Shown here in pieces: positions 11-8,319 of a DNA stretch of 36,039 nucleotides. The DNA is taken from assembly GCA_030650845.1 (NCBI GenBank), contig JAUSDC010000244.1, positions 1-36,039 of the forward strand. Direction: 5' to 3'. Origin of the DNA: Candidatus Methanoperedens sp. Lineage in GTDB: Archaea; Halobacteriota; Methanosarcinia; Methanosarcinales; Methanoperedenaceae. Numbering within the stretch: the first letter of the stretch is position 1; each line of letters opens with the position of its first letter. The notes under the pieces were generated by a model. It did not search any database. It was not told the DNA's origin and saw nothing but the letters and a program-made list of their open reading frames with translations. Position numbers and translations under genes: made by a program.

Positions 11-1081
11 ATGCTAAGAAATAATCCCGAAAAATCCCAACAATATGCAGATCTGGAAGTATATCTGATAGAATTGATAATCCAGAATCTAAAAGAGTCC
101 GAGACATCTTTAAGCACGGTTGAGCTTTTTAATTTGATAATTCTTAAAAATCTCATATCTGATAAAATCAAGGCTATTATAGAGATACAACATATAAGAA
201 ATATTTGTGATGATCTGGTAAAAGATGGTATTGTTATCGAAAAAGAAAAGGGTAACTTTTTATATCATGAAAATTATAAAAAAAATTACGAAAATAAGAC
301 AAATATCAATATAAAATCTGTAAAATATAACTTAAACAAAGAGATATATCTTCCGATCCTTGGCATGATCATTGGAGAGCTTCTGCTGTTCATGGGTAAC
401 GTTTACGCAGGTCTTGCTGTCCATGTTATCAATATTCAAGCTATATCCATTGCAATAATACTTGGCAAATTTTCTGAAGATATAAAAAAAGTTTTCCAGA
501 GCATGCTTTTGCTGATACTGATGCGGATAATAAATCTTTCGATGCCGCAGTTTTTCACTTTTACGTTATTATGGTATCCGCTTGTTTACGGTATCATGTT
601 TATTCCTATTTATTATGTCATCAAGAATCAGAACATTACATTAACGAACATTGGCCTTCATTTTAAACGGTGGTACATTTACCTGCCAGCAGCCCTTCTG
701 ATAGGTTCTGCAATGGCTATGCTGGAATTTAGAATACTGCATCCAACTCCGCTTATAGTGAATCTAAAAATACAAAACCTTCTTTTGATATCGATGGTAA
801 TGTTCGTTTTTGTGGCAGCTGTTGAAGAACTGATATTCAGATCTATACTGATCACAAGACTTGAAACAGTGTTTGGATCAATAACTAGCTTATTGCTCAG
901 CTCTCTCCTGTTCGGGATCATGCATGCAGGCTACGGACTCCTGACCGAGATCCTGTTCGCAACCTTCTTCGGTTTAATCCTTGGTTTAATATTCCAGAAA
1001 ACAAGGAGCCTGCCATTCATTGTGGTGATCCACGGCACCGCTAATGTGCTTCTGTTAGGTGTCCTGCCTATAATATCATGA
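11..1081 (+). CDS. CPBP-family intramembrane metalloprotease with N-terminal cytoplasmic domain
   Basis: The C-terminal half carries the CPBP (CAAX protease/bacteriocin-processing, Abi) signature. EELIFR is the EExxxR motif near residue 275, FGIMH follows near 303, and HGTAN (HxxxN) near 341, all within several hydrophobic helices. These residues normally form the metal-dependent glutamyl-protease site in the membrane. The first ~100 residues are hydrophilic and helical, ending in a K/E-rich segment that could be a winged-helix-like domain; that is inference from pattern only. The frame stays open to the left edge, so the ATG at 11 may be internal and the gene 5'-truncated. It converges with the archaeosortase operon, overlapping its last gene by 14 nt. 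Family confidence is high; the substrate is unknown. Confidence 0.85.
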   Translation: MLRNNPEKSQQYADLEVYLIELIIQNLKESETSLSTVELFNLIILKNLISDKIKAIIEIQHIRNICDDLVKDGIVIEKEKGNFLYHENYKKNYENKTNINIKSVKYNLNKEIYLPILGMIIGELLLFMGNVYAGLAVHVINIQAISIAIILGKFSEDIKKVFQSMLLLILMRIINLSMPQFFTFTLLWYPLVYGIMFIPIYYVIKNQNITLTNIGLHFKRWYIYLPAALLIGSAMAMLEFRILHPTPLIVNLKIQNLLLISMVMFVFVAAVEELIFRSILITRLETVFGSITSLLLSSLLFGIMHAGYGLLTEILFATFFGLILGLIFQKTRSLPFIVVIHGTANVLLLGVLPIIS

Positions 1082-1301
1082 TGACTTTTAAGAAAACAAT
1101 AGCTGCAAAGGTTATAAGAAGCGAGATCGTACATATATTAAGCGTACTTGATGCCCAACTGTTCCAGTATTTTGAATCCGAGATCAAAAGACCTATGGCA
1201 AGAGAAACCACAAGAGATACTGTTGCTATTACCCCCCCCTGCGAGATGATATCTATTGGGAGGGAGGTCTGGACATTTGATATCGCCGCAATCATGCTCA
1301 T
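1068..1301 (-). CDS. Small two-helix membrane protein ending the archaeosortase operon
   Basis: This 77-residue protein has two hydrophobic segments (roughly residues 23-41 and 55-76) separated by a short polar stretch rich in S, K and W. No family is recognised. I accept it as real because a full Shine-Dalgarno core (GGAGGT on the minus strand, plus-strand 1313-1318) lies 11 nt before its ATG. It also follows the EpsI-like gene by only 24 nt on the same strand. Its 3' end overlaps the convergent CPBP gene by 14 nt. The long ORF on the plus strand here (1078-1413) lacks protein-like composition and is antisense to two genes. A role beside the sorting enzyme is guilt by association. Confidence 0.65.
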   Translation of the reverse strand: MSMIAAISNVQTSLPIDIISQGGVIATVSLVVSLAIGLLISDSKYWNSWASSTLNICTISLLITFAAIVFLKVIMIL

Positions 1302-1325
1302 ATTTGTATATAACCTCCAGAAGAC

Positions 1326-2114
1326 TTATTCCTTTCTCCTGATCCCTGCCAACACTATACCTGCAGGGATTAACAATGCCAGTGCCATCACAGCCATGCC
1401 TGTCTTTCCGTAATTATTGATGATGTCTTCTGAAACTGTGATCGTTTCTGGATCACCCTGTTTATACATGGTATAGAATAATTCATTTTCGATGAAATCG
1501 TTAATGGTATCGAATGCATTTGATCCATTTGAAATAACTGGCGTTGTAATGCGGATCATGGAGACAGAATCTATTGACCCGACTTTTTTGAACATAAACC
1601 AGTACACCATGATCTGGCTCTGGTTCTTCTTACTATAATCCAGCCTTTTAGCAAATAATTTCGTAAATGGATTCGGTGGATTTGCTATCCTGAACTCGGA
1701 TATGCTTTCGTTATTTATATCCCATCCCCCCAGGCATATTTTTGGATCATGAAAGCTTTCTCCAACTTTGCTGTTTATTATATCCATCCAGACATAACTT
1801 CCATTTCTTTTTTCGTATGTCCTGCTCAGTAGTATATCAGCTTTTAATGCCCTGTAAACACTTTCATCATATCTGAAATCATAGCCTTTCCAGTCTCCAA
1901 GAACTTTCGGAAAAGTTTGCAATTCTTCCATGCTGTTGTATTCATACGCTGTCTTCAGCATGAGACGATTTTTTGTTTCCCCATAGTACGTTGTATCTGC
2001 TATCGTATAATCTGTGATATCCTTAGGGGAGAGCAGGAAAATAAATACATATGAAAATAAGATTATCCCTATCATTATCAAAAGATTTTTTTGAATCGCA
2101 GCCGTCCGAAACAC
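1326..2114 (-). CDS. EpsI-like exosortase-associated protein
   Basis: The 262-aa protein has an N-terminal membrane segment (residues ~11-29), an extracytoplasmic domain and a C-terminal membrane helix (~238-256) followed by RRKE. The domain has the pattern of the EpsI/exosortase-associated family (DUF3485): FPKVLGDWKG near residue 70, then FHDPKICLGGWD near 121, with the conserved His and Cys. EpsI proteins occur beside or fused to exosortases; their exact role is not settled. The start is a GTG at 2112-2114 whose upstream GGGAGG abuts it, overlapping the archaeosortase 3' end by 37 nt. The start could therefore lie somewhat further inside. It is the direct partner of the upstream archaeosortase. 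Confidence 0.8.
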   Translation of the reverse strand: MFRTAAIQKNLLIMIGIILFSYVFIFLLSPKDITDYTIADTTYYGETKNRLMLKTAYEYNSMEELQTFPKVLGDWKGYDFRYDESVYRALKADILLSRTYEKRNGSYVWMDIINSKVGESFHDPKICLGGWDINNESISEFRIANPPNPFTKLFAKRLDYSKKNQSQIMVYWFMFKKVGSIDSVSMIRITTPVISNGSNAFDTINDFIENELFYTMYKQGDPETITVSEDIINNYGKTGMAVMALALLIPAGIVLAGIRRKE

Positions 2115-2893
2115 CTCCCGACAACAAATAGCCCTACCAGGGCAACGCTGAATAAAAGAATGCTAGAAAAATCGTGGAAATAGTTGATCGCTGCCTCCTG
2201 CCCATATTTACCTGCAACAACAAGGATCGAAGTGATCCTGAGAATATTTCCTGCCAGCGCCAATGGTATCGTGGATATAAGTATTGTGGCTTTCATCAAG
2301 TTACTTCCCTCTAATACATAAGCAAATATTATTCCGATCATGAATAGCGAGATCAAAGAATTTATGCCACTGCACTCAACTCCCACTTCAAATGCTCCAG
2401 CAGGGATCGTGATGATAAGTCCATCTCTCACAGCAGGTATCCCTATGAGATTTGCCAAATTAGTGGTTGCTAATACCGAGATCATCTGGGCAGGGGATGT
2501 GATCAAGTAAATAAAAGGTACTGGTATCATTAATACCAGGAAAAGAAATGGAAACTTGATCTTTTTGATAAATTCCCATCCATATAGATATATTATCGCA
2601 CCTGCAAGCGTTATCAAAAGAGAAATTCCTGATAGAAAGCGTATCGTCCATAAGACACTTATCCCCTGAATTATGATACCCAGGGCAAATATTGCCAGAC
2701 CAAACTGAGAAGGCTTCTTATCAATAGATCCAAGCTCTTTCCTCATGTTCCAGATAATATATCCAGATATTAAAGGCACCAGAAATCCATGTGAATAGTA
2801 TTCATTATACATCCACGATTCTACCAGCCATACTAACGTATTGTAGTAGAAGATCAATACTACCGGAATAAATAATATAGACAGGTAACTCAT
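2078..2893 (-). CDS. Archaeosortase (exosortase-family transpeptidase-like membrane enzyme)
   Basis: This is a polytopic membrane protein of 271 aa with about eight hydrophobic helices. It shows the exosortase/archaeosortase catalytic triad: Cys174 in VECSGI, Arg219 in GNILRI and His240 in FHDFSS. These enzymes recognise a C-terminal tripartite tail (motif, helix, basic cluster) on secreted proteins, remove it and probably attach the new C-terminus to another molecule. The gene starts 3 nt after the stop of the S-layer-like gene, with no clear SD, suggesting translational coupling. The likely substrate (4084-4707) is two genes upstream and ends in VPELNP plus helix plus RKYKR. This resembles the VPxxxP-CTERM/ArtB pairing known in methanogens; the subfamily is inferred from the tail, not from a model search. 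Confidence 0.9.
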   Translation of the reverse strand: MSYLSILFIPVVLIFYYNTLVWLVESWMYNEYYSHGFLVPLISGYIIWNMRKELGSIDKKPSQFGLAIFALGIIIQGISVLWTIRFLSGISLLITLAGAIIYLYGWEFIKKIKFPFLFLVLMIPVPFIYLITSPAQMISVLATTNLANLIGIPAVRDGLIITIPAGAFEVGVECSGINSLISLFMIGIIFAYVLEGSNLMKATILISTIPLALAGNILRITSILVVAGKYGQEAAINYFHDFSSILLFSVALVGLFVVGRCFGRLRFKKIF

Positions 2894-2896
2894 TTT

Positions 2897-4069
2897 TCAC
2901 ACTTTTATCTGTATTTTACCTTTTATCAATGATAGAACTTTTCCTACTTCTAAATTCAATGGTCGAGTATTTTTCATAATAATAGAATCTTGAGTAATAT
3001 CTTCTATTTTGAATTCTTCATATCTATTTCCGATAAAAACTTGTTTTTTAGTCCCATATTGGGTAATATCAAACATAATATCGTTTGAAGATATCGAAGT
3101 AGGAATTATTCTTATAATTCTTTCTTTTTTATAATCATTAATTTGATGCCAATATTCTATTGGGGAATTTGCCTGACTGATGATCTCTCTTACGATCTTG
3201 TTATCCTTTAATATGTCAATTTTTAGGGTCTCTTTATTGATGTTCTGACTGTCTATTTCCCTTAAGGTAACAGAATATCCATTTTTTAACTTTAGTGTCT
3301 CGTTTATTGAGAGTTTATTATCTTGAGTTCTCAAAATTATCAGATAAAGAGAGGCTAAACTGTTTGGATAGATCTTTTCATACATTTCTTGAATAAACAC
3401 GATGCTATCTCCATCGCTTACAGTTGAATAAACTGCGTCCCCTATATTTACAATACCATCCCTGACTGTCAGTTCAAGCCTTTCGCCTGATTTGAATTTA
3501 TATATATTAGTGCTTCCATTCTTTTCTACAGTATAGGTGGAACTCTGTGTACTTTCTTTTTCAACCTGGGAAGATTCGGCTTTATTGTCTATGGTTTCTT
3601 TGTTCTGAAGTGAGAGAGGATTGATTTTTGGAAATTGACCATATCCAGTGGAAGGGATTATTTGAAATACATAGGTTCTAAAAGGTTCGATCCCTTTAGA
3701 AAGCACGAATTCAAGCTTCTGGTAACTCCCCTTTAGGTCAGGGATTATAGAAAAGGCTTGGTTTGATATCTCATTATTTTGCAGAATAATTTGCTGATTC
3801 TTTACCTCCTTTCCATCAAGAAGGATTTTTAGTCCATAGTCTACTTTTACGCCCTCCCTGTTTTCAAGCTTTACCCTGTAAACAGCAGGTTTTTCGGAGA
3901 TTATTTCAGTTTCATTTTTTACATGAAAAAGAGTAACAGGTTCAGATGAAGGTTGTATTTCTTCTGCAGTAAGTTCCGTGATTGCAAAATATGCTCCCAT
4001 TGCTCCTGCTGCAGGGAAAAATATGAGGAATAAAAACATCGCAATTTGACTTTTTTTCATATTCCTCAT
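2897..4069 (-). CDS. Secreted/membrane-anchored protein with DUF1616-like and S-layer-like domains
   Basis: The 390-aa protein has a signal or anchor helix at residues ~8-30. The first third (about 45-140) resembles the soluble part of DUF1616 proteins, with a YRVKLENREG-type beta-sandwich and a YQKLEFVLSKG segment. A low-complexity S/T/E linker (~165-190) follows. The rest resembles the methanosarcinal S-layer duplication domain: LKNGYSVTLREID followed by LKIDILKDNK. It has no C-terminal sorting tail. It sits between the sorted substrate and the archaeosortase. Two start codons are possible (M1 and M4); a GAGGA precedes M4 closely. A scaffold, chaperone or surface-attachment role for the sorted protein is inference. 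Confidence 0.7.
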   Translation of the reverse strand: MRNMKKSQIAMFLFLIFFPAAGAMGAYFAITELTAEEIQPSSEPVTLFHVKNETEIISEKPAVYRVKLENREGVKVDYGLKILLDGKEVKNQQIILQNNEISNQAFSIIPDLKGSYQKLEFVLSKGIEPFRTYVFQIIPSTGYGQFPKINPLSLQNKETIDNKAESSQVEKESTQSSTYTVEKNGSTNIYKFKSGERLELTVRDGIVNIGDAVYSTVSDGDSIVFIQEMYEKIYPNSLASLYLIILRTQDNKLSINETLKLKNGYSVTLREIDSQNINKETLKIDILKDNKIVREIISQANSPIEYWHQINDYKKERIIRIIPTSISSNDIMFDITQYGTKKQVFIGNRYEEFKIEDITQDSIIMKNTRPLNLEVGKVLSLIKGKIQIKV

Positions 4070-4083
4070 ATTTAGATTTCTAT

Positions 4084-4707
4084 TTATCTTTTATATTTCC
4101 TCACTATAAGTCCCAATCCTAACAATCCTACTGAGATCAATATTACAGGATTCAATTCAGGAACTGGGATCGTTGGTTCGCCTGGTCTTCTAAAACATGT
4201 TGGCACACCGCTAGCTGGATCCGTCCCTCTATCTGTATCACTTCCGCATATATCCGCACTGATTACATGAACCAAAGTTTTCACATTTGGAGGTCCACTG
4301 AATTGTATAGTACCTACTGGTATTGCAACTCCAGTGAAAGGTATATTATAGGGATTTCCAGCAGAACCGGGGGCGCCGCTAGAACCATCAAATTCTGTAA
4401 CGTTCTTATTTGTAACTTTATAGCCCCAACCATCCCACAATGCATTTGCACTAGTGGGAGCATTTGCATTTGCTATACATACTTCCCTGAACCCAGGAAT
4501 TCCTCCTACTGGATTCATATTTTGTGCACTTTTTACATAATACTTCCAATTATTGCCTCCCAAATCTTCACTCAGTACCACGATTTTATCCGACATAGGT
4601 TTTCCGTTCCAGGTATTTGGATTTGGACAAGGATTTGCAGAAGCAATTCCAACTATTCCCAGCAGTATTAAACATACTGCAACTATTTTTACTATATTTA
4701 TTTTCAT
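4084..4707 (-). CDS. Secreted protein with VPxxxP-type C-terminal sorting tail (candidate archaeosortase substrate)
   Basis: The 207-aa precursor has a clean signal peptide (lysine-containing start, hydrophobic core, cleavage after ASA at residue 24). The mature domain is rich in N, G, P and T with four cysteines (near 27, 77, 153 and 169), and its fold is not recognised. The C-terminus has the tripartite architecture of an archaeosortase target: VPELNP at 182-187, a hydrophobic helix, then RKYKR. A strong SD (GGAGGT, plus-strand 4713-4718) lies 5 nt before the ATG, stronger than any other in the operon, consistent with high expression. It is the only obvious sorting-tail protein in the window and is encoded in cis with the enzyme. 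Confidence 0.85.
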   Translation of the reverse strand: MKINIVKIVAVCLILLGIVGIASANPCPNPNTWNGKPMSDKIVVLSEDLGGNNWKYYVKSAQNMNPVGGIPGFREVCIANANAPTSANALWDGWGYKVTNKNVTEFDGSSGAPGSAGNPYNIPFTGVAIPVGTIQFSGPPNVKTLVHVISADICGSDTDRGTDPASGVPTCFRRPGEPTIPVPELNPVILISVGLLGLGLIVRKYKR

Positions 4708-4749
4708 ATATTACCTCCTATCATATTAGTTTATATGAAAATCATCAAA

Positions 4750-5712
4750 TCAACTTCCCCCAAAAGTTGATTTAAATCCTTTCTTTATCGATTGTTGTAC
4801 CCTGCCTCCGTTTTCCCTTCCTTTTTTGATGGTGACGCCTTCATTTATCATCCTTGAGATCGAATGCAATATTATCCCGGTAAATGCCATGAAACTACCA
4901 ACAAGTGTAAGCATTATCATAAGAAACGTTGGACCAAAATTCAGGCGTCCTCCAGTATAGAAATCCCGCAGAAAGCCAAGCCCAAGGAATAATCCTGCTG
5001 CTGCGAATATCAATCCAGGTACTGTGAAGTAATATAGAGGTCTGTTCAATTCCATGTCATGAAGTACATTCATCAGTACTTTGAGACCATGGCTCACAGG
5101 ATTCTCACTCGAGCAATCCACATCATACCTCACTCCGATCTCAACTTCCTTGATCTTCAATCCTGCGTTCGCGGCATCACTGAGCATCTCGCTTTCTATC
5201 GCTAGCCCAGTTGATTTAAATCTGAACGATGATAAAGTGTCTCTTGCAAATGCCCTGAAACCGCTCTGTGTGTCCGTGATATGAAGTCCTGTGTTGAGGT
5301 TTGTTGCTGAATCAAGTACATTCTGACCAATTCTTCGATAAAAAGGAGTGTTCTTGCCATTGCCGTTCATATAACGACTGCCATTTACGAAATCTGCCTC
5401 TCCTTTGAGTATTGGCTCTACAAGTTTTGATATTTCTTCAGGGTCATGCTGTCCGTCAGAATCCATTGTGACAACGACTTTTGCGCCATTTAGACTCACA
5501 TATTCAAAACCTGTCTTTAGCGCCATACCTTTCCCCATATTCTTTGGGTGGCGGATCACATAGGCGCCTGCCAGTTGCGCCACTTCTGATGTCCTGTCAG
5601 AACTGCCGTCATCCACTACGACGACCTGATCTGCATGCTGTCTTGCATGAAGAACAACACTCCCGATTGATATTTCTTCATTATACGCCGGCAAAATTGC
5701 TGTTATTGTCAT
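4750..5712 (-). CDS. GT2 family glycosyltransferase (dolichol-phosphate sugar synthase-like)
   Basis: The protein has 320 aa. The N-terminal GT-A domain shows ILPAYNEE, VVVDDGSSDRT and the metal-binding DSDGQHD (near residues 85-91), then NGSRY and TDTQSGFRAF, as in polyprenyl-phosphate glucose/mannose synthases. Two hydrophobic helices follow (about 231-249 and 262-287), then a basic tail. It probably charges dolichyl phosphate with a sugar for surface glycosylation. It is the first gene of the minus-strand archaeosortase operon, 42 nt upstream of the sorted protein. The ATG is preceded by a GGGGAG SD. A TATA-like box near 5871-5878 would leave a leader of about 130 nt. Confidence 0.88.
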   Translation of the reverse strand: MTITAILPAYNEEISIGSVVLHARQHADQVVVVDDGSSDRTSEVAQLAGAYVIRHPKNMGKGMALKTGFEYVSLNGAKVVVTMDSDGQHDPEEISKLVEPILKGEADFVNGSRYMNGNGKNTPFYRRIGQNVLDSATNLNTGLHITDTQSGFRAFARDTLSSFRFKSTGLAIESEMLSDAANAGLKIKEVEIGVRYDVDCSSENPVSHGLKVLMNVLHDMELNRPLYYFTVPGLIFAAAGLFLGLGFLRDFYTGGRLNFGPTFLMIMLTLVGSFMAFTGIILHSISRMINEGVTIKKGRENGGRVQQSIKKGFKSTFGGS

Positions 5713-5889: not shown

Positions 5890-6042
5890 TTATTCATGAT
5901 GATTAATATTATTACCATAATAATGATGATGATTGAACACATCCATACATTTCAGTGTGCAGAACAATAATTCTCTGGCACTTTGTTCCTGAATGAAAAT
6001 CTTCTTGTTGCAATTTGCACATTCAGCTTCGATTATTTCCAT
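5890..6042 (-). CDS. Short Cys/His-rich protein (putative metal-binding 50-mer)
   Basis: This short frame encodes 50 residues: an acidic start, CANC at 8-11, a second cysteine pair C28/C32 (CTLKC) and a histidine-rich tail (HHHYY near 38-42, then HH at 48-49). Four cysteines in CxxC...CxxxC spacing suggest a zinc-binding knuckle of the kind seen in small archaeal treble-clef-like proteins. It has an ATG start and an AGGAGT SD (plus-strand 6051-6056) 8 nt upstream, preceded directly by an 8-bp hairpin. A TATA-like element at 6139-6155 is suitably placed. No specific family is recognised. The histidine tail could alternatively bind nickel, iron or copper. Confidence 0.6.
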   Translation of the reverse strand: MEIIEAECANCNKKIFIQEQSARELLFCTLKCMDVFNHHHYYGNNINHHE

Positions 6043-6400: not shown

Positions 6401-6427
6401 TGCCGATGCTTGACTAAAAAGGCAGGC

Positions 6428-8005
6428 ATGAAGTATATCATTGTCACGGGCGGTGTGATGAGCGGTCTGGGAAAAGGGATAACTGCCGCTTCTATCGGAC
6501 GAATTCTGAAAAACAAGGGCTTTAGCGTTACTGCGATCAAGATAGACCCTTATATCAATATCGACGCCGGGACAATGAGCCCGTACCAGCACGGCGAGGT
6601 CTTTGTACTGAAGGACGGAGGCGAAGTTGACCTTGACCTGGGAAATTATGAGCGATTCCTTGACATTGAACTGACGCGCGAGCACAACATAACCACGGGA
6701 AAAGTCTATCAGACAGTCATAGAAAAAGAGCGCCGCGGAGACTATCTTGGAAAAACCGTTCAGATAATCCCCCACATTACGAATGAGATAAAAGAGCGTA
6801 TAAGGAAAGTGGCAGCAAAAACAGGCGCAGATATCTGCATCATTGAAGTGGGCGGAACTGTTGGCGACATTGAAAGCATGCCTTTCCTTGAAGCAGTCCG
6901 TCAGATGCACAGCGAAGAAAAGGAAGAAGATGTTGCCTTTGTGCATGTGACACTTGTGCCCCTTGACACACAGGGAGAACAGAAGACAAAACCCACCCAG
7001 CATTCAGTGAAAGAACTGCGAAGCCTCGGTCTTCAGCCTGATGCCATCGTTGCGCGGTGCAAGGAACCTGTGCTTGATGATACTAAATCAAAGATAGCCT
7101 TATTCTGTGATGTTCCAGCCAGAGCTGTAGTAAGCGCACACGATGCAAGGGACATCTATTATGTCCCAACTCTTATGGAAAAAGAAGGATTGTCCGATTA
7201 TCTCATGGAGAAGCTCAAACTTACACCAAAGAGCGAGTCGCATGAATGGGATGATCTGATGAATAAGATGGCTGCCATAGATAAGGAGATCCGCGTTGGA
7301 GTTGTGGGGAAATATGCTCATCTTGGTGATTCATACATAAGCATAAATGAAGCTCTCAAGCATGCAGGAATAGAATGCCGATGCAGGATAAAGATAGACT
7401 GGATCGATGCTGAAGAGTTTGAGAGAAAACCAGAGACAATTGATACACTGCAAAAATACAACGGAATACTTGTCCCCGGTGGGTTTGGTGTGCGCGGGAC
7501 TGAAGGTAAGATACTTGCGATAAAATATGCGCGTGAACATAATGTCCCCTATCTGGGTCTGTGTCTGGGTATGCAGCTTGCGGTTATTGAATTTGCTCGA
7601 AACGTAGTGGGTTTAAAGGATGCCAATAGCTCTGAGCTTGCAAAGACCGAATATCCGGTTATTGACCTTCTTCCTGAGCAGGAGAACGTCAAAGACATGG
7701 GGGGATCGATGCGCCTCGGGAACTACGAAGCTGACCTGATAGACGGTTCAATAGCAAGCAGGATATATGGGTGTCTAACTCTTGTGGAGCGCCACAGGCA
7801 CAGGTATGAGGTAAATCCGAAGTATATTTCACAGATAGAAGCAAAAGGTTTGAAATTTACAGGGAAGAATGACCACAGGATGGAGATCGCAGAGCTGCCT
7901 GGACATAAATTCTTCTTCAGTTCCCAGTTCCATCCAGAGTTCAGGTCAAGACCTGGAAAGCCATCACCGCCATTTCTGGCATTTGTGAAAGCGGCACTGG
8001 GGTGA
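6428..8005 (+). CDS. pyrG: CTP synthase
   Basis: The 525-aa enzyme makes CTP from UTP, ATP and glutamine, the last step of pyrimidine nucleotide synthesis. The N-terminal amidoligase domain starts at once with the P-loop-like [10 protein letters not shown] and contains [20 protein letters not shown] and [10 protein letters not shown]. The C-terminal class I glutamine amidotransferase has GGFGVRG and the nucleophile in GLCLGMQ, with the His/Glu pair in QFHPEF. Length is normal. The frame could begin at a TTG at 6410, but the family normally starts MKYI, and the TATA position fits the ATG at 6428. Its stop overlaps the GTG start of the next gene by 4 nt. Confidence 0.97.
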
Positions 8006-8319
8006 GTTTGACATATATTGGAGTAAATAATAGAAAAGATGGCGATATTAAAATAATAATTGCCATTCTAAAAAAATATCCCGGGATAGAACAAGCTCTC
8101 ATTTTCGGCTCAAGGGCTAAAGGCAATTACAGGCCAGGATCTGACGTGGACATTGTCTTAAAAGGCAATGTTAATGAAATCACTACTGAGATAGGTTTTT
8201 CACTCAACGAAGATAGCCTTTTACCTTACAAATTCGATGTGCTGGATTATAACAGCATTTCCAATAAAAACCTGATCGATCACATCAACAGGGTGGGAAT
8301 TGTGTTTTATGCAAGATAA
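8002..8319 (+). CDS. Minimal nucleotidyltransferase (MNT type)
   Basis: This 105-aa protein has the pol-beta-like nucleotidyltransferase signature: GSRAKG at 36-41, followed by SDVDIVL with metal-binding Asp48 and Asp50. The size matches MNT proteins that usually pair with a HEPN protein in toxin-antitoxin modules, where the MNT can AMPylate or otherwise neutralise the HEPN RNase. No HEPN gene is visible on either side. The GTG start lies in a GTGA overlap with the pyrG stop, so it is translated as a tail of the pyrG transcript. It could be an orphan antitoxin or an independent nucleotidyltransferase. Confidence 0.85.

Follow-up and report, generated by a model that had tools for sequence, protein, structure and literature searches.

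An exosortase/EpsI locus with a convergent CPBP protease gene and VPEL-tailed candidate substrates in the archaeon Candidatus Methanoperedens

The closest described counterpart of the locus considered here is the bacterial EpsH/exosortase A-EpsI-PEP-CTERM system (TIGR02602, TIGR02914, and TIGR02595; PMC1569441). In a 2006 survey, PEP-CTERM/EpsH was confined to bacteria with an outer membrane, archaea were named as lacking it, and the function of EpsI was not known (PMC1569441); in the table of a 2017 survey, a single EpsH domain is entered in a column for ANME. Archaea are known to use ArtA and ArtC with PGF-CTERM and PEF-CTERM tails, respectively, and for ArtA cleavage has been linked to lipid anchoring, with archaetidylethanolamine as the proposed nucleophile (PMC7157517). 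Myxosortases (Mrt_core, MrtS, and MrtJ) form a further comparison, and small dedicated enzyme-target loci are known for MrtJ (PMC11980579). Our literature search returned no archaeal EpsI modules, VPEL tail class, or ANME-2d PEP-CTERM loci, some of which a 2012 archaeosortase paper may mention. The exosortase E/protease (TIGR04162) and pepcterm_CAAX (TIGR03008) models describe exosortases combined with a CAAX/CPBP protease.

The locus lies within a window of 36,039 nucleotides that constitutes an entire contig (C48) of a host genome (G000) of 3.4 Mb in 258 contigs, and the closest relatives of its exosortase belong to Methanoperedenaceae (ANME-2d) metagenome-assembled genomes (MAGs; 61-86% identity). 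Six minus-strand ORFs (Table 1), separated by 42, 14, 3, -37, and 24 bp, form the tight operon that a preliminary description had placed at 1068-5712; the convergent CPBP protease gene was absent from its gene list. The coordinates and lengths given there were reproduced, as were the GT2, EpsI-like, and exosortase-superfamily domains (PF00535, 9.5e-27; PF11984, 2e-14; PF09721, 7.1e-58). Its central reading, an operon that joins a sorting enzyme to an EpsI partner and a tailed substrate, is retained, whereas the identification of the enzyme as an archaeosortase and the proposal of a single target are revised below. Upstream of the operon we noted a short, His-rich minus-strand ORF (5890-6042) that contains a CxxC pair and is possibly metal-binding, followed at 6410-8319 by a CTP synthase-like gene (pyrG) and a small nucleotidyltransferase-like ORF, both recognized by eye; a pyrG-like ORF is also found near an exosortase in L005, in the opposite relative orientation. 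No relatives were found in viral contigs, which thus give no sign of a mobile carrier.

Table 1. Coordinates of the predicted genes of the exosortase/EpsI locus (window positions)
Feature	Position	Strand	Evidence
Glutamic intramembrane protease of the CPBP family (Rce1/myxosortase-like); gene convergent with the operon	11..1081	+	PF02517, motifs
77-aa membrane protein (TM77)	1068..1301	-	no family match (Pfam, TIGR models)
EpsI/DUF3485 protein, 262 aa, two terminal TM helices	1326..2114	-	PF11984
EpsH-type exosortase, 271 aa, Cys174/Arg219/His240	2078..2893	-	TIGR02602, PF09721, triad
Secreted protein, N-terminal region DUF1616-like, C-terminal region S-layer-like (both weak matches)	2897..4069	-	
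Secreted substrate candidate, 207 aa	4084..4707	-	sequence; tail-model match 6.9e-17
GT2 glycosyltransferase, AglJ-like, two C-terminal TM helices	4750..5712	-	PF00535 9.5e-27

The locus shares with the bacterial EpsH system an EpsH-type Cys/Arg/His enzyme, an epsI gene immediately following that of the enzyme, secreted substrates of motif-helix-basic-tail architecture, and, at some loci, glycosyltransferase neighbours. It differs in its archaeal host, in the VPEL motif that replaces PEP in Methanoperedenaceae, in the convergent CPBP gene, in the few targets (compared with a median of 8 in a bacterial survey), and in missing the cut-offs of the XrtA and EpsI models. With ArtA and ArtC it has in common the superfamily, the triad, the tail architecture, and the archaeal host; unlike them, it has an EpsI partner, its enzyme reaches only 26.3 bits with the ArtC model (cut-off 100), and its VPEL tails do not track ArtC. 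The exosortase and CPBP protease are encoded here by two separate convergent genes, in contrast to TIGR04162 (17.5 bits, cut-off 150) and TIGR03008 (no match).

The enzyme passed the 8TM_EpsH model TIGR02602 (160.6 bits, cut-off 105.55); its best subfamily was XrtA (exosortase A, TIGR03109), although that cut-off was missed (177.8 vs. 208 bits), and ArtC was the sole archaeosortase model to match. Since the EpsH model was passed and the ArtC model was not, the enzyme is a bacterial-type (EpsH) exosortase rather than an archaeosortase. The triad residues C174, R219, and H240 occupy the positions previously assigned to them and are conserved in 42/42, 42/42, and 41/42 homologues, respectively. 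The genome contains six exosortase/archaeosortase-family genes over the cut-off; two of them are ArtC (267 and 262 bits), and another comes closest to ArtC and ArtD without reaching their cut-offs. A search for solved structures similar in sequence to the exosortase or to EpsI found none.

The epsI gene starts within the exosortase gene, which it overlaps by 37 bp. Its product belongs to DUF3485 (54.2 bits, cut-off 26.1) and failed the TIGR02914 EpsI model (29.2 bits, cut-off 42.8). His122 and Cys127 are invariant in 41/41 homologues, so that a chemical role for EpsI through these two residues is possible. AlphaFold prediction of EpsI together with six homologues gave no usable model (pLDDT 37.7). 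TM77 homologues (54-82% identity) follow EpsI in all Methanoperedenaceae stretches that cover this position, and are also found near f8 loci.

The product of the convergent gene is a well-supported CPBP-family member (66.2 bits, cut-off 22.4; 3.4e-18) with all three family motifs, EExxxR, FxxxH, and HxxxN, intact as EELIFR, FGIMH, and HGTAN. The gene adjoins the exosortase/EpsI pair at 9 of the 10 assessable Methanoperedenaceae loci, the exception being M. nitroreducens ANME-2d (L005), and CPBP genes adjoin exosortase loci in five families, at many loci and in either orientation. Only three CPBP genes are present in the whole host genome, and two of them neighbour exosortase/archaeosortase genes (that of C48, and that of C54 within a few kb). 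The window protein also has an N-terminal extension of about 100 aa that is absent in relatives; a part of it, about 70 aa, recurs with 43-45% identity beside an ArtC gene (L015:1208-4492) and in the C54 CPBP protein (L017:5294-6652).

A CPBP sorting protease has been demonstrated in Myxococcus (PMC11980579), and the protease of the locus might itself sort the VPEL-tailed proteins, with the exosortase and EpsI as accessories. The glutamic protease fold, the intact motifs, the distant match to myxosortase models, and the conserved adjacency agree with this; on the other hand, every myxosortase model stayed below its cut-off (MrtS 31.0 vs. 130, Mrt_core 26.5 vs. 100), the protease is paired with an exosortase, the tail motif has no Cys, unlike MYXO-CTERM, and VPEL tails persist in G393, whose exosortase locus lacks CPBP. 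We consider such a division of labour quite improbable.

The 207-aa protein has the architecture ascribed to it, an N-terminal signal/TM segment and a C-terminus formed by VPELNP, a hydrophobic helix, and RKYKR, which corresponds to a PEP-CTERM-like arrangement of signal peptide and motif-helix-basic C-terminus. The PEP-CTERM model (TIGR02595) gave no match in the host genome at E up to 10, and PEF-CTERM (TIGR03024) gave none at the locus and none over the cut-off in the genome; therefore a local profile was built from eight VPEL tails, including those of the window and of contig C224 and excluding that of contig C199. This profile recovered three ORFs in the genome, in the window (6.9e-17), on C224 (1.0e-15), and on C199 (8.4e-12), with the next best match at 0.66. 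The string VPELNP occurs only once in the whole genome, but the search for other tails yielded three VPEL-tailed ORFs and not the single target envisaged earlier.

The C224 protein combines an ice-binding-like domain (PF11999, 9.6e-62) with a DUF11-type domain and is apparently not encoded at the window locus; a second ORF near it (4512-5369 in L089) also looks ice-binding-like by eye. C199 ends in a DUF1616 gene (L143:8325-9185) that runs off the contig end. In L002 and L006 a DUF1616 gene directly precedes the CPBP gene, so C199 may adjoin the first base of the window, which would probably place its substrate at the same locus; the two contigs share no end overlap. These results support a small, enzyme-specific set of targets. 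The preliminary description had the enzyme serving the 4084-4707 product alone, which the operon would first cleave and then modify with a glycan or a lipid. The tight operon and the unique VPELNP string fit that proposal, as do the PEP-CTERM tails of G389 and G025, all of which lie beside their own exosortase. Against it stand the two further VPEL-tailed ORFs of the host genome, the tails of G393, G397, and G404, which are all unlinked to the exosortase, and the absence of the substrate gene at L003-L006 and L071, and we regard it as very doubtful.

VPEL tails were then compared with the distribution of the enzyme. The exosortase is carried by 11 of the 34 Methanoperedenaceae genomes (one copy is cut at a contig edge). 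Strong VPEL tails were found in 11/11 exosortase-positive and 2/23 exosortase-negative genomes (Fisher p 2.7e-7, ignoring the relatedness of genomes), and the weakest of the best tail matches in the positive genomes was 1.3e-9. The profile drew on tails from six exosortase-positive genomes; the count excluding the source genomes, 5/5 vs. 2/23 (p 2.1e-4, again ignoring relatedness), is therefore the fairer one. Both exceptions, G400 (97% complete) and G399 (87%), have VPEL tails and no EpsH-type exosortase, which may reflect assembly gaps or loss. A tail match of 1.3e-6 in G364 was not counted as VPEL, since it reads VPEFPT and is a PEF tail.

It may be asked whether VPEL tails are instead processed by ArtC, the exosortase having another job. 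The host genome contains two ArtC genes (262-267 bits) and no PEF-CTERM tail over the cut-off, and PEF and VPEL tails resemble each other. However, four ArtC genomes with no EpsH-type enzyme over the cut-off (G396, G398, G403, and G414; 235-265 bits) have no strong VPEL tail, and VPEL/VPEP genes adjoin the exosortase in other families, which makes processing by ArtC unlikely. Relatives of the window substrate ectodomain in G364 and G418 (4.6e-8 and 6e-8), genomes without an EpsH-type exosortase, carry PEF-CTERM tails; judging by these sequences, the same kind of protein appears with a different tag and, presumably, a different enzyme. The data support the view that the VPEL tail class tracks the EpsH-type exosortase and not ArtC.

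The conservation of gene order in relatives divides the locus in two. The exosortase, EpsI, TM77, and the convergent CPBP gene form a constant core in Methanoperedenaceae, with DUF1616 behind CPBP in some genomes. The substrate, S-layer-like, and GT2 genes vary, so that the order expected from the preliminary description is kept for the core only. The substrate gene lies upstream of the exosortase in G000, G405, G419, and G415, whereas M. nitroreducens ANME-2d has unlinked VPEL tails only. The S-layer-like gene is present at six Methanoperedenaceae loci and absent at those of G393, G395, G397, and G404; matches consistent with its DUF1616/S-layer label exist, but all are below cut-off (PF07752, 29.2 vs. 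30; PF07760, 18.8 vs. 31.6; TIGR01567, 24.6 vs. 121.9). The GT2 gene, which failed the AglJ model (157 bits, cut-off 325), is found in G000, G397, G404, and G420, and at the f19 locus L080. Inspection by eye also pointed to a cytochrome-like multihaem protein ending in a PGF-CTERM-like tail (L005:3823-4770), close to the exosortase locus of M. nitroreducens.

The preliminary description took EpsI to be unusual in an archaeal locus, but 32 of the 393 sampled genomes of the phylum encode it, spread over 16 of 136 genera, and an exosortase almost always lies next to it. Four further archaeal families have related exosortase/EpsI pairs, and in two of these families genuine PEP-CTERM proteins are encoded alongside. 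At f9, f4, and f19 loci the tail genes lie just upstream within the exosortase operon. Two of the f9 products are secreted proteases, one papain-family (L083:8106-9515) and one subtilisin-family (L082:3785-5509), with PVPEL/PIPEL tails and genes immediately upstream of exosortase/EpsI, and the f4 and f19 tails pass as PEP-CTERM (19.7 and 26.1 bits, cut-off 16). The TIGR02595 cut-off was reached in archaeal genomes G389, G025, G082, and G064. PEP-CTERM tails number one in G389 and two in G025 genome-wide, and all adjoin the exosortase/EpsI pair; strict dedication of enzyme to target, which fails in the window genome, thus holds for the PEP-CTERM tails of these two.

In an exosortase tree of 45 rows, in which bacteria are thinly sampled (only eight sequences, plasmid-borne), archaeal EpsI-type exosortases (f1, f4, f8, f9, and two f19 copies) form one group (support 96/89) apart from the bacterial eight, and the Methanoperedenaceae copies form one group (99/99) inside it. 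A 510-aa exosortase-EpsI fusion in an f19 archaeal MAG (L018, G082:C46) groups with bacteria and reflects either transfer or contamination. The module could in principle be a remnant, or have come recently from bacteria, and have no settled role, as its patchy occurrence in 11 of the 34 family genomes and its matches to bacterial-type models might suggest. We hold this to be extremely improbable in view of the conserved triad, the invariant His and Cys of EpsI, the conserved neighbours, and the position of the Methanoperedenaceae group within the larger archaeal one.

The interpretation that we favour, and consider probable, is that the locus is an archaeal exosortase/EpsI sorting module, whose EpsH-type enzyme acts on a small set of VPEL-tailed surface proteins. 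The N-terminal signal would export these proteins, and the C-terminal helix and basic residues would hold them in place. By analogy with ArtA and given the triad, the exosortase may recognize VPEL, Cys174 would cut, and the new C-terminus would be transferred to an acceptor with release of the tail; this acceptor might be a lipid-linked glycan or, following the ArtA model, an amino-lipid. The substrate may be glycosylated or attached to a lipid. The observed association with EpsI suggests that it is co-expressed and assists on the outer face, and the CPBP protease may belong to the same pathway, most likely acting on the released tail helix or on a second tail site. Two of the three candidate targets would probably be encoded at the locus and the ice-binding-like one elsewhere. 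The S-layer-like and GT2 genes would be optional local cargo or helpers, and GT2, where present, may supply a lipid-linked sugar. A bolder extension, which we put forward tentatively as possible rather than likely, is that several archaeal lineages have an undescribed two-protease machine, in which a Cys exosortase, an obligate EpsI with His and Cys taking part in the chemistry, and a CPBP protease act in turn on one tail. If so, EpsH/EpsI sorting would need no outer membrane and would serve small local sets of targets, e.g., exported proteases and adhesin-like proteins.

The presence of EpsH, EpsI, and matched tails in archaea suggests that the core sorting reaction is separable from the outer membrane, and the systems of G389 and G025, with one or two targets, are small enough to suit work on the role of EpsI. 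Methanoperedens oxidises methane anaerobically and transfers electrons across its surface. In this organism the module may provide a third route for fixing surface proteins, in addition to PGF/ArtA and PEF/ArtC.
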